Assembly: GCF_001467615.1 (NCBI RefSeq)
Contig: NZ_LNYA01000024.1
Span: 131,389 to 181,388 of the forward strand
DNA from: Legionella erythra
GTDB lineage: Bacteria; Pseudomonadota; Gammaproteobacteria; Legionellales; Legionellaceae
Reading direction: 5' to 3'
Length of the DNA: 50,000 nt
The translations under genes were made by a program, and so were the position numbers. This document shows positions 15,152 through 27,559 of the stretch, piece after piece (positions within the stretch are counted from its first letter, which is position 1; the number at the start of each line of letters is the position of its first letter). Under the pieces are notes generated by a model. That model had not been told where the DNA came from. It saw nothing but the letters and a program-made list of their open reading frames with translations, and searched no databases.

Positions 15152-15609
15152 TGGCCTACCCGGTTGCTTTTCTCGATTTCTGCGCGACGGTAGCACACAA
15201 GCCTACGTCGTTACGTAAAAATGTTCTCTACATTTTATGGCGCAGCGACAAACCGCTTAAAGCCTATGACATCCTGGAGCAATTGTTGCAATTTAACGCC
15301 AATGCCAAGCCGCCTGCCGTGTACCGGGTGCTGGATTATTTTGTCGCTTTAGGGCTAGTCCACAAGATTGAATCCATTCAATCCTACTCCTTGTGCCAGG
15401 AGCATGAAAAAAAATACCATTGTGAGCTACTCATGGTATGCCATCACTGCCATGCGGTGGTTGAGGTGTATGATTCGAATTTGCATGCCTTGATAAAACA
15501 ATTAGGCCAAACGCAGCGGTTTGCCTTGCAGGAAAGCAGCATTGAAATCAAGGGCCTGTGTGAATCATGCCAGGCACAGCATCGAACCCAGCGTTCAAAA
15601 AAGGTATAA
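15151..15609 (+). CDS. zur: Fur-family zinc-type regulator (Zur-like)
   Basis: 152 residues with an N-terminal winged helix (about 15-85, with the AKPPAVYRVLDYF recognition segment) and a C-terminal dimerisation and metal domain. Structural zinc ligands are the pairs CHHC (about residues 91-94) and CESC (about 131-134). Other His/Cys in LCQEHEKKYHC suit the sensory site. The short form without a His-rich tail, and the LRKNVLYILW opening, match Zur rather than Fur. Its ATG overlaps the deoB stop (ATGA). No Zur box was confidently located in the window, so its targets are not stated. Confidence 0.82.
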   Translation: MAYPVAFLDFCATVAHKPTSLRKNVLYILWRSDKPLKAYDILEQLLQFNANAKPPAVYRVLDYFVALGLVHKIESIQSYSLCQEHEKKYHCELLMVCHHCHAVVEVYDSNLHALIKQLGQTQRFALQESSIEIKGLCESCQAQHRTQRSKKV

Positions 15610-22898: not shown

Positions 22899-22927
22899 AA
22901 TGGCCCTGCAACGAAGACTTGATAACC

Positions 22928-24304
22928 ATGCTAGAAAAAATTTTCCCTTTGATCTCGTTGGATGAGCTTAAAAAACGGTACCAGCGCTTAAAAGCGGACA
23001 CCTTCCTGATGCGTGCGGAGAAACTGGATTGCGTACAGGTGATTTTTGAAGACTTGCTCAACGCGGTACAAAAGCCGAACGGGCTATCCCAAAAACGGTT
23101 TGAAGCCATTCTCTATGTTAAGGCTCAGATTTATACGCTTTTAATCAGTGACAAGGTCCTAATTGATTCCCTGCTGGATAAGCTGGAACAGGCGTGTGCT
23201 GACAATTTTCATGCCTGCTCCTTAAGTGTCGATCACCTCCTGGAAAAGAAATTATGCCCTGGGTATTATCAGACCAAGCGCTTTCCCTATGCGCAGGGGA
23301 CGCAGGAGCTGGAGGAGCACCTTTACTATCCCGTCATTTCACAGGAAATTTTAGACGTTGACTACCCGCAAACGATTTTAACCACTCCGTTGTTGGAGCA
23401 ACTGCAAAAAAACCGCATTAATTTTCATTCCAGAGTGCCGGGCCGGAAGCGTTTTCTCGAAAGCGATGGCTGGTTACGCTTTTTTGGCATCGTGTCCGAT
23501 GCGTCCTCAAGCGCCGTCTTGTCAAGAGGCCAGATTTTTATAGAGCCGCCGGAATTTCCGCATACGGTTAGCCGTCTGCACGGCCCCTTTGGTCATGCCC
23601 TGCAGGAATATTTAAATTCAAAATTGCTTGAGGGAGGCCATTTGGACATGCCCGCCGAGGCGGGCGTGGGCAAAATCACCGCGCTTGACTTATTGAAAGC
23701 GGAGGCCTGGTCGCTTAAGGATGTAAAAAAAGGAGAATTTGCCACTTGTCTGTTTGACCTGATGCGTGAGCGCTTGCCCGAGAAGTTACGCCGGTTTCGT
23801 GTCGTTCCTAATCAGGCGTTTGCGTTTACCGCTTCTGAGTTTATCACCCAGTATCTCCTGTTGAGCCCGTACCGTTTCCCCTGCCTGTCAAGCATTATGT
23901 ATTTCGTTTATGCAAAGGGTACAAAAACTTATTTTCAGAGTGTACCGGGTTTCTCGGATCTTAAGCCGGAAGAACAACTGCTGATTATGAATAATTATTG
24001 TGATAATGTCGTGCTGGATATGGACGTTGGTGTCTTTATTAAAAAAAATCCAGACTATTTTCGATGCAATAATGGCTCAAGCAAGGATCCTATCTTTTTT
24101 AAAGAGGCATCAAAACCGTTTATTTACTCGTCCATGGATGATGATGTCCGTACCATTCGTGCCCGGAAAACCGCGGCAAAGGCCTGCATTGAGCCAGAAA
24201 GAAAGCACAGCGCAAGAGCGTTGTATGATGACTCATTATTCTCAGGTTCCCCGCGGATTACAAAAAAGGACGACCGGGAGCAAATGTCACTGATGCCGTT
24301 ATGA
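22928..24304 (+). CDS. Hypothetical protein, about 459 aa, effector-like
   Basis: No family recognised. A TTG at 22919 would add three residues; neither start has a strong ribosome site. The protein is soluble with no export signal, with mixed alpha-helical character and a helical N-terminus rich in Lys/Leu/Glu. A segment HGPFGHALQEYLNSK lies at about residues 220-234, and an acidic/basic tail ends KKDDREQMSLMPL. Size, lack of relatives and a disordered polar C-terminus fit a Dot/Icm substrate, but there is no direct evidence. It precedes the MerR-QueF operon by about 50 bases but has its own promoter. Confidence 0.65.
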   Translation: MLEKIFPLISLDELKKRYQRLKADTFLMRAEKLDCVQVIFEDLLNAVQKPNGLSQKRFEAILYVKAQIYTLLISDKVLIDSLLDKLEQACADNFHACSLSVDHLLEKKLCPGYYQTKRFPYAQGTQELEEHLYYPVISQEILDVDYPQTILTTPLLEQLQKNRINFHSRVPGRKRFLESDGWLRFFGIVSDASSSAVLSRGQIFIEPPEFPHTVSRLHGPFGHALQEYLNSKLLEGGHLDMPAEAGVGKITALDLLKAEAWSLKDVKKGEFATCLFDLMRERLPEKLRRFRVVPNQAFAFTASEFITQYLLLSPYRFPCLSSIMYFVYAKGTKTYFQSVPGFSDLKPEEQLLIMNNYCDNVVLDMDVGVFIKKNPDYFRCNNGSSKDPIFFKEASKPFIYSSMDDDVRTIRARKTAAKACIEPERKHSARALYDDSLFSGSPRITKKDDREQMSLMPL

Positions 24305-24310
24305 TCCGTC

Positions 24311-24341
24311 TTGACCCTCACGTAACGTGATCCATTACAAT
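24311..24341 (+). promoter_or_regulatory. MerR-type promoter with 19-bp spacer and palindromic operator
   Basis: -35 TTGACC (24311-24316) and -10 TACAAT (24336-24341) are separated by 19 bases, the overlong spacer characteristic of MerR-controlled promoters. Inside it is a perfect 13-base palindrome, TCACGT-A-ACGTGA (24318-24330). MerR proteins bind such sites and untwist the DNA to align the two hexamers. The expected transcript start near 24348 lies just ahead of the ribosome site GGAG at 24351. The fused MerR gene therefore probably controls itself and the genes behind it. Confidence 0.75.
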
Positions 24342-24360
24342 GCGTCGTGAGGAGTCAAAC

Positions 24361-25611
24361 ATGCGGTATTATCAGATTAAAGAAATCAGCCGCCTTACCT
24401 CATTGTCAGTGCGTTCTTTGCAATACTACGATGAGAGGGGCTTGCTTAAGCCCAGCAAGCGTTCGGATGCTGGTTATCGTCTGTATTCGGATGCCGATTT
24501 ACTGCGATTGCAGCAAATCGTCACACTGAAATACTTAGGCTTTTCTCTCAATGAGATTAAGAAAACGCTGAATGATCCGCAGTTTGATATTCAGAAATCC
24601 CTGGTCGTTCAGGCCAGGCTGCTTGCCGAAAAAGCACGGCAGCTGAAAGAGGCGTCGGCTTTGCTGACTTATATCGCATCACAACGGGAAGCGCAGCAGG
24701 CTGTGAACTGGCGAAGTACGGCAGAAATCATTGCAATTTTGGAGTTAAGCAATATGAATAATGGAGTAGATAAATATAATAATCAGGCGGATGATTCCGA
24801 GTTAGGCAGAAAGTCGGAGTATGATGCCTCATACAATCCGCAAAGGCTTTACCCGATTCCACGCGCCGGCAAGCGCCGGGAAATTGGTATCAATCCTGCT
24901 CACGAGTTGCCTTTTTACGGCTTCGACGGGTGGAATCATTACGAAGTGTCCTGGCTGAATGAGAAAGGGAAGCCCATTGTCGCTGTGGCGGAAATCGATT
25001 ATGATTGCCGCACGCCGATGCTGATTGAATCCAAGTCACTGAAACTTTACTTTAATTCGTTCAACAATACCCGGTTTAAATCCCTCACCGACGTAGTCAA
25101 TATCATAAAAAGCGATCTTGAACAGCGTGTTCAGGGCGACGTGAGGGTGGCTGTCCACCCCTTGGGCTCGGGTGTCATTCTACCTCTTTATGAACGGTTT
25201 AATGGTGAATGCATTGATCATCTCGACGTGGCGTGCTCAACCTACACGGTCGAACCGTCGTTTTTAACGGCGACAGGCGAACCGGTTGAAGAAACCCTTT
25301 ACTCCGATTTGTTAAAGTCCAATTGCCTGGTGACTAACCAGCCTGATTGGGGCAGCGTGCAGATTAGTTACAAAGGGCAAAAAATAAACCGTGAAGGGTT
25401 GTTAAAATACCTGGTTTCTTTTCGCAACCACAATGAATTTCATGAACAATGCATTGAGCGGATTTTCATTGATATTATGCGGCAGTGTCAGCCGGACGAG
25501 CTGACGGTGTATGGCCGTTACACACGGCGGGGTGGTTTGGACATTAATCCTTACCGCAGTACGAAGCAGCCGGTCCGCCAGGGACTGAATTTCAGGCTTC
25601 CTCGCCAGTAG
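24361..25611 (+). CDS. queF: MerR regulator fused to QueF (7-cyano-7-deazaguanine reductase)
   Basis: One uninterrupted frame of 416 residues holds two complete parts. Residues 1-70 are a MerR winged helix (YYQIKEISRLTSLSVRSLQY and an AGYRLYSDADLLRLQQI segment). Residues about 75-115 form the dimerisation helix. Residues about 146-416 are the long QueF enzyme, which reduces preQ0 nitrile to preQ1 with NADPH for tRNA queuosine. QueF hallmarks are LIESKSLKLY (Glu223), nucleophile Cys322 in KSNCLVT, Asp329 in QPDWG, and His361/Glu362 in FHEQC. All match E. coli QueF, so catalysis should be intact. GGAG six bases before 24361 decides the start. An internal ATG at 24754 with GGAG nine bases ahead could give free QueF of 285 residues. 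Confidence 0.9.
   Translation: MRYYQIKEISRLTSLSVRSLQYYDERGLLKPSKRSDAGYRLYSDADLLRLQQIVTLKYLGFSLNEIKKTLNDPQFDIQKSLVVQARLLAEKARQLKEASALLTYIASQREAQQAVNWRSTAEIIAILELSNMNNGVDKYNNQADDSELGRKSEYDASYNPQRLYPIPRAGKRREIGINPAHELPFYGFDGWNHYEVSWLNEKGKPIVAVAEIDYDCRTPMLIESKSLKLYFNSFNNTRFKSLTDVVNIIKSDLEQRVQGDVRVAVHPLGSGVILPLYERFNGECIDHLDVACSTYTVEPSFLTATGEPVEETLYSDLLKSNCLVTNQPDWGSVQISYKGQKINREGLLKYLVSFRNHNEFHEQCIERIFIDIMRQCQPDELTVYGRYTRRGGLDINPYRSTKQPVRQGLNFRLPRQ

Positions 25612-25652: not shown

Positions 25653-27559
<1,907 letters not shown>

Follow-up and report, generated by a model that had tools for sequence, protein, structure and literature searches.

A 50,000-nucleotide stretch of the Legionella erythra contig NZ_LNYA01000024.1 (hereafter the window) carries a gene, merR-queF, in which a MerR-type transcription regulator is fused in frame to a complete long-form QueF, an enzyme of queuosine synthesis. 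Here we show, by comparison of sequences, that the fusion is conserved in the Legionellaceae, that a predicted MerR-type operator with the spacing typical of this family precedes it, that a candidate internal start signal is conserved ahead of the QueF part, and that the MerR part has its apparent origin in the TipA class of regulators. The gene probably makes both the long MerR-QueF protein and a short QueF of 285 residues. In our judgement it is fairly likely that merR-queF is an autoregulated gene with two products and a TipA-like layout, whose C-terminal sensor was exchanged for QueF as the likely new sensor.

The fused gene, its protein and its distribution

A single frame of 416 codons extends from 24361 to 25608, with the stop codon ending at 25611, and contains no internal stop (Table 1). 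Pfam places MerR_1 at residues 4-71 (E 2.2e-20), QueF_N at residues 154-264 (E 9.2e-41) and QueF at residues 328-404 (E 1.8e-28). The NCBIfam equivalog for long-form QueF, TIGR03138, scores 384 bits against a cut-off of 293.45 and aligns residues 143-416 with positions 3-275 of its 275. Together with the conservation of the frame in relatives described below, this confirms the sequence-only reading of the window, in which a MerR regulator had been proposed to be joined in frame to a complete long-form QueF. The same reading had stated that Glu223, Cys322, Asp329, His361 and Glu362 are retained, and these residues, which we take to be the catalytic ones of QueF, are indeed invariant across 25 aligned fused proteins. 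The winged helix-turn-helix and the dimerisation helix that characterise the MerR family are both found in the fusion, by Pfam and in an AlphaFold2 model built with 25 sequences (mean predicted local distance difference test score, pLDDT, 78.8; predicted template modelling score 0.60). The open reading frame listing gives an earlier ATG of the same frame at 24340; since this ATG overlaps the predicted -10 box and AGGAG stands 6 bases ahead of 24361, the latter appears to be the better start. No QueF besides the fusion was found in the window's genome (E 0.001; two matches, the second being a MerR-only paralogue), and queC and tgt are both present, so that MerR-QueF is presumably the working queuosine-synthesis enzyme of this genome.

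The same two-domain order was sought in related genomes and was found many times. Full-length fusions occur in 6 of the 11 genomes of the genus, and the Legionellaceae hold 44 intact fused copies, 42 of them distinct, in 40 of 143 genomes, the same 143 that the order-level search covered. A chance open frame was rejected on the strength of these 44 conserved copies. Among the species with an intact frame are L. anisa, L. parisiensis, L. worsleiensis, L. bozemanae, L. gratiana, L. steelei, L. tucsonensis, L. longbeachae and Fluoribacter gormanii. Besides the intact copies, one is cut by a contig end (genome G057), two are frame-broken inside MerR (G066, G072), and seven family genomes contain a second copy broken inside QueF.

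Outside the Legionellaceae no fusion was found at E 1e-60 in 369 genomes of the class, in which the full-length rows belong to three Legionellaceae including the window, and among 398 genomes of the phylum only the window itself was fused at this threshold, at which weaker or more distant fusions would be missed. One row of the phylum search (G750, beginning at residue 61 and with 2 stops) was read as a stretched alignment. From a wider contig collection the best 80 of 464 confirmed loci were taken; ranks 1-34 are fused and ranks 35-80 unfused. The fused loci are mostly from Legionella or Fluoribacter, with a few metagenome bins labelled otherwise; five have their break within QueF, one runs off the end of its contig, and locus L201 stops soon after the junction. 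L202, which is 56% identical and comes from a bin titled Bacteroidetes, and similarly odd labels were taken to reflect mislabelled or mixed bins.

Concerning mobile elements, none of 104 matching phage records covers 80% of the query, and 5 of 354 plasmid records do so, all of them from Legionella. Three genomes from two genera (G073, G100, G136) share an identical MerR-QueF copy, and G069, G082, G092 and G128 have close ones; the loci of this set are L035, L049, L050, L053 and L055-L057, with L094, L122 and L123 as broken copies. Seven genomes have one frame-broken copy each, all with the same score, and four Legionella plasmid records of 143-150 kb contain a copy in two pieces. The set of identical or close copies looks plasmid-borne and mobile.

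Judged by substitution rates, MerR and QueF alike are under purifying selection. The median ratios of nonsynonymous to synonymous substitution (dN/dS) are 0.112 for MerR and 0.100 for QueF in 14 disjoint pairs of fused genes with a whole-gene dS of 0.15-0.9. The sequence-only reading had named, as evidence against a true fusion, close relatives that always have a stop codon or frame break between the two parts; this pattern was not seen in the loci examined, and G007, which has QueF only, came to it through an apparent deletion of MerR. Nor did the loci examined include any with a whole MerR, a stop and a separate QueF: they are fused, have lost or broken MerR, or are without a MerR trace, and the possibility of two genes split by a stop in relatives was discarded.

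In a tree of QueF, 85 of 140 rows have no MerR trace and 55 have one, 11 of the latter having lost or broken MerR. This tree was built by a quick method and has 61 of its 135 inner forks below a support of 80; the "remnant" labels of nine rows were set by eye, L094, L122 and L123 being left out as too short. It needs at least 17 state changes, gain and loss being indistinguishable on it. Because the copies share one junction, we read the sequences as pointing to one origin of the fusion, many losses and some transfer. Between the window and G010, identity per 100 bases is 91-100% to the left of about 24740, from the upstream gene on, and 73-96% to the right through QueF; the position around 24740, at the MerR-QueF junction, reads as a probable recombination boundary between the two.

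Predicted promoter, operator and internal start

Promoters that MerR proteins switch are typically marked by an over-long spacer, of 19-20 bp, with a palindrome inside it. Upstream of all 44 intact fused copies, TTGAC(C/T) and TAnnnT are separated by a 19-bp spacer (found by script in 43 copies and by eye in the last one, L054), and this spacer holds a palindrome, as TCACGTnACGTGA or in a variant form. Among the 43 scripted copies all six pairs of the palindrome are formed in 26, five in 14 and four in 3. The predicted promoters of the fused copies thus show the feature of the MerR family. The sigma-70 scan covers spacers of 16-18 bp and, for that reason, does not list a promoter with 19 bp.

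A strict operator pattern, with no mismatch allowed and missing several fused copies with variant operators, matches 49 sites in 39 of the 143 family genomes, and its reverse matches none. QueF copies, whether intact, broken or truncated at a contig end, follow 46 of these sites, one of these copies having its MerR deleted; the other three belong to a cut-short MerR-QueF, to another MerR gene and to an unrelated place, one each. The unrelated site (L252, in G127) is a perfect match ahead of a 710-codon frame, with no MerR or QueF gene behind it. With up to two mismatches, the window's genome has two sites, one at the fusion gene and one, with two mismatches, at a TipA-like paralogue (L002, at C28:36482); on this count we rejected a wide regulon. 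L002 has an operator of its own, related in sequence and with the palindrome TGACGTTGCGTCA. Its half-sites and those of merR-queF are one base apart, which looks like a divergence against cross-talk between the two regulators. A riboswitch ahead of the gene was rejected, as no match in the window, to whatever Rfam family, attained the gathering score.

Because the MerR-type promoter with its palindrome occurs almost only at this gene, we infer that MerR-QueF controls its own promoter. Two suggestions had been made from the window alone. That of a transcription switch gains support, as far as self-regulation goes, from the conserved frame, the purifying selection on MerR and the MerR-type operator in front of the gene itself; that of a protein which simply tethers an enzyme to DNA is left without support, the operator pattern being almost confined to the gene's own copies.

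Within the fused genes, codons 127-132 read nTG GAG nnn nnn nnn ATG, and codon 127 is TTG or CTG in 41 of the 42 distinct copies. Glu128 is encoded by GAG in 42 of 42, as compared to 389 of 1285 glutamate codons elsewhere in these genes, and none of the 15 other conserved glutamate columns exceeds 30 GAG in 42. Among 233 columns ranked by synonymous conservation, columns 127 and 128 take the second and third places. Pairing with the anti-Shine-Dalgarno sequence at an energy of -4 or stronger is predicted ahead of codon 132 in all 42 copies, as against 19 of 244 other internal methionine codons. In G007, which is 89% identical over residues 124-416, MerR is gone: the missing stretch begins right after the -10 box and ends shortly ahead of the internal Shine-Dalgarno sequence. 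The palindrome is lost as well, and this Shine-Dalgarno sequence, the ATG and QueF now stand directly after the old promoter. G007 reads as a clean deletion of MerR and, as such, as a natural deletion test of the putative internal start. Further copies without MerR (e.g. L072, L078, L080, L104, L109) keep the tail of the MerR frame and the same start. The NCBI Prokaryotic Genome Annotation Pipeline (PGAP) likewise starts the L. adelaidensis homologue at codon 132 (15745, the full frame beginning at 15352) and annotates no MerR. Since the internal start signal, which the sequence-only reading had overlooked, is conserved, is retained after the loss of MerR and agrees with the PGAP start, a short QueF of 285 residues is very probably made besides the fusion. 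Of the earlier objection that only a separate 285-residue QueF might be produced, the short protein therefore very probably stands and the word "only" probably does not: it would be made alongside the fusion, not instead of it.

The closest unfused MerR proteins, ranks 35-80 among the best 80 of 464 loci, belong to the TipA class. TipAS (PF07739) lies just behind the same linker in 11 of 15 unfused relatives scanned by Pfam, these 11 being hand-picked from non-Legionella loci; the fusion has no PF07739 match at E 0.001, and QueF occupies that place. In the remaining four relatives Pfam found no TipAS, to E 10 in L002, L212 and L235 and at E 0.001 in L241; three of them are from Legionellaceae or Legionellales and one is from an alphaproteobacterial bin. 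A profile made from 16 TipAS-type loci matched 20 of 21 C-terminal parts of the L212/L235/L241 type at E 1.5e-11 or better and the last at 8e-4, and hhalign of the two types gave 98.9%. L002 is outside this 21-locus set; its match to SkgA extends to residue 169.

The internal start signal was counted in 46 TipA-class loci (L205-L250). Forty have a linker E...M at about codon 128, mostly as (I/M)EVxxM and including L220 and L246, where E...M stands in a different sequence context; six are without the motif. The linker glutamate is encoded by GAG in 40 of 40, versus 396 of 915 elsewhere in the same genes, and in 38 of these loci the predicted pairing ahead of the internal ATG is -4 or stronger. 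The loci with this candidate start come, by their record titles, from several phyla. For tipA of Streptomyces lividans, TipAL and TipAS have been described as products of two start codons, with the short product predominating (PMC7762955); the two-start account is also given in PMC6078987, whose authors assume the same for AlbA. The recurrence of the signal in 40 of 46 relatives suggests that two-product translation could be general in the TipA class. QueF appears to have replaced TipAS at the internal start, with the two-product layout kept.

Table 1. Features of the merR-queF locus (positions in the window)
Feature	Position	Strand	Basis
-35 box TTGACC, MerR-type promoter (predicted)	24311..24316	+	Sequence; 19-bp spacer to TAnnnT box in 43/44 fused copies by script
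Operator palindrome TCACGTAACGTGA within the 19-bp spacer (putative)	24318..24330	+	Sole mismatch-free operator-pattern match in genome
-10 box TACAAT (predicted)	24336..24341	+	5/6 to consensus at spacing 19
Shine-Dalgarno AGGAG, long form	24350..24354	+	Duplex energy -4 or lower in 38/42 distinct fused copies
merR-queF fusion gene, long product 416 aa	24361..25611	+	Open reading frame listing, Pfam, NCBIfam
MerR helix-turn-helix DNA-binding part, residues 1-71	24361..24573	+	Pfam MerR_1; sequence matches to N-terminal structures of Mta, TipA, SkgA
Coiled-coil helix 77-110 and helix 117-131 (MerR dimerisation region and TipA-class linker)	24589..24753	+	AlphaFold2 model
Internal Shine-Dalgarno GGAG, codons 127-128 TTG GAG (candidate)	24741..24744	+	GAG in 42/42 distinct copies; energy -4 or lower in 42/42
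Short product, QueF from internal ATG codon 132, 285 aa (predicted)	24754..25611	+	Pfam QueF_N and QueF complete in 285-aa form
Major facilitator superfamily (MFS) transporter gene, 41 bases downstream, not part of conserved core	25653..26921	+	Pfam MFS_1

The MFS neighbour recurs in G007, G008, G009 and G010, and is not found at the other 6 of the 11 genus loci; it is possibly co-transcribed with the fusion. Upstream of the fusion lies a 461-codon frame (22919-24304) with no Pfam or NCBIfam match at E 0.001.

The putative signal and alternative readings

In the mechanism that we propose, the long product would be a dimeric MerR-type regulator that sits on the palindrome of its own 19-bp-spacer promoter and switches this promoter. 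The short product, started at codon 132, would provide the free bulk QueF enzyme, which turns preQ0 into preQ1. That both products are made is what we infer from the two conserved start signals. The QueF part of the long form would act as the sensor: its occupancy by preQ0, by the covalent intermediate or by NADPH would alter the MerR part and hence the output of queF, and free short QueF would lower the signal. QueF traps its ligand on a cysteine. TipAS, too, binds thiopeptides covalently via a cysteine (PMC7762955). This likeness makes QueF a natural candidate for the sensor. Taken alone, QueF occupancy as the signal is put forward tentatively, as a proposal that falls a little short of an even chance.

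Several observations weigh against the proposed mechanism. The linker of residues 132-154 has a pLDDT below 50 in the AlphaFold2 model, which speaks against QueF being tightly coupled to the DNA-binding part. The TipA switch is located in helices alpha6-alpha7 of TipAS, which is absent from the fusion, and TipAN and MtaN alone are reported to be constitutively active (both from PMC7762955), so that the MerR part might never be off. MerR can also be dispensed with, as seen from the QueF rows that are without a MerR trace and from those that lost or broke it. The comparison of the window with G010 gives a dN/dS of 0.67 for MerR, a value that is uninformative since dS is 0.011. The operator pattern was built from the promoters of these same genes; matches there are circular, and only its scarcity elsewhere is informative. 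As for the internal start, the column of Leu47, which has no such role, tops columns 127 and 128 in conservation of codon use. The amino acids Glu128 and Met132 are inherited from the TipA-class linker, and it is the codon-level signal only that supports the start. In the TipA-class frames, moreover, other methionine codons reach -4 in 89 of 237 cases (in an overlapping set of 40), a weaker contrast than in the fusions.

Four other explanations were weighed, the first two of which share the autoregulated two-product core with the proposed mechanism and differ from it in the signal; the probabilities that we attach to the various readings do not sum to one. The alternative that survives best, unlikely though we consider it, is autoregulation of dosage only: the MerR part would be constitutively active or repressing and QueF its passenger, and a steady level would be held without any sensing of a metabolite. 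The low-confidence linker between the parts fits with this, as do the absence of the TipAS domain, the reported activity of TipAN and MtaN without an effector domain (PMC7762955), an operator almost confined to the gene itself and the loss or breakage of MerR in 11 of the 55 QueF rows with a MerR trace. What it leaves unexplained is why 44 copies keep the MerR part in frame with QueF when, given the internal start, a stop between them would cost QueF nothing, and why none of the loci examined has a whole MerR that is closed by a stop ahead of QueF.

A titration by mixed dimers is rather improbable. Here the short QueF would pair with the long form and disrupt the MerR dimer, so that the ratio of the products, and not a metabolite, sets the promoter. 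The QueF and MerR families both dimerise, and the short form likely comes from the same mRNA; an excess of the short form, as it is reported for TipAS, would on the other hand depress DNA binding permanently. Still less probable is a MerR part that senses an unrelated signal, e.g. a drug, through helices of its own, with QueF and, in this clade, the downstream MFS gene as targets. The TipA-class origin of the MerR part would agree with it, and so would the MFS gene that comes next after queF in 5 of 11 genus genomes. Yet the ligands of the TipA class bind TipAS (PMC7762955), which is missing in the fusion, and the MFS neighbour stands behind only 3 of 6 fused and 2 of 5 unfused genus copies. 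Least probable of all is a gene that starts at codon 132 as annotated and leaves the MerR frame untranslated or a separate relic: PGAP starts the L. adelaidensis queF there with no MerR upstream, and MerR was lost in several lineages, but the MerR frame lacks stops and evolves under constraint (median dN/dS 0.112), has its own Shine-Dalgarno sequence in 38 of 42 copies and stands behind a conserved promoter of the family type.

Should the proposed mechanism be true, with both products made and the long form responding to the occupancy of QueF, merR-queF would be a one-gene feedback circuit for queuosine synthesis that is run by a protein and not by a riboswitch. It would also be a natural case of a regulator family in which the exchange of a domain, at an internal start codon, supplied a new sensor. 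As a further reading, two-product translation may be an ancient and general trait of the TipA class across several bacterial phyla, and thereby make the class a ready acceptor of new C-terminal sensors. The annotation of such genes has a blind spot: in L. adelaidensis, the one annotated fused record examined, the annotated gene begins with the internal ATG and omits the MerR half, so that fusions of this kind can escape searches of annotated proteins.

Comparison with known systems

No description of a MerR-QueF protein was found in searches of open-licence literature, judged mostly without full texts and including PMC10570037 and PMC11625349, each available in part. A review of the MerR family names GyrI-like and TipA sensors and, in its available part, no fused enzyme (PMC9909328). 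By membership, MerR-QueF is a MerR DNA-binding part and a QueF; by layout it is TipA-like, and it is not a member of the TipA class because TipAS was searched for and is absent.

With the TipA class (TipAL/TipAS of S. lividans, AlbA, SkgA, Mta) the fusion shares the MerR N-terminal part with its coiled coil, the promoter of its own and the start signal inside the linker, two in-frame products being reported in the case of tipA (PMC7762955) and assumed in that of AlbA (PMC6078987). It is unlike this class in having the QueF enzyme in place of the drug-binding TipAS, the switch helices of which are missing, and in its presumed ligand, which would be an intermediate of the cell's own metabolism. 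With the long-form QueF of the E. coli and Vibrio cholerae type (TIGR03138) it shares the complete domain and the catalytic residues. The closest solved structure by sequence for the QueF part is 3bp1, which we take to be the V. cholerae protein. Long-form QueF is usually encoded by a stand-alone gene of about 280 codons, whereas in the fusion a DNA-binding regulator stands ahead of it in frame.

Enzymes that also regulate transcription, such as PutA, NadR and BirA, are known as trigger enzymes. Like them, MerR-QueF unites an enzyme and a DNA-binding part in one chain, with its own gene or pathway as the presumed target of regulation. A MerR-type trigger enzyme with a tRNA-modification enzyme was not found in the searches of open-licence literature, again judged mostly without full texts. 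With some reserve, and as somewhat less probable than not, we propose that MerR-QueF is a trigger enzyme and a protein-based transcription sensor of preQ0, in which an enzyme that likewise traps its substrate on a cysteine has taken the place of the drug-trapping domain of a TipA-type regulator, and that one mRNA in the ancestral two-start layout provides sensor and enzyme alike. The preQ1 riboswitches resemble it in that queuosine genes are controlled by a precursor; they do so by RNA, whereas in MerR-QueF the control would lie with a protein.
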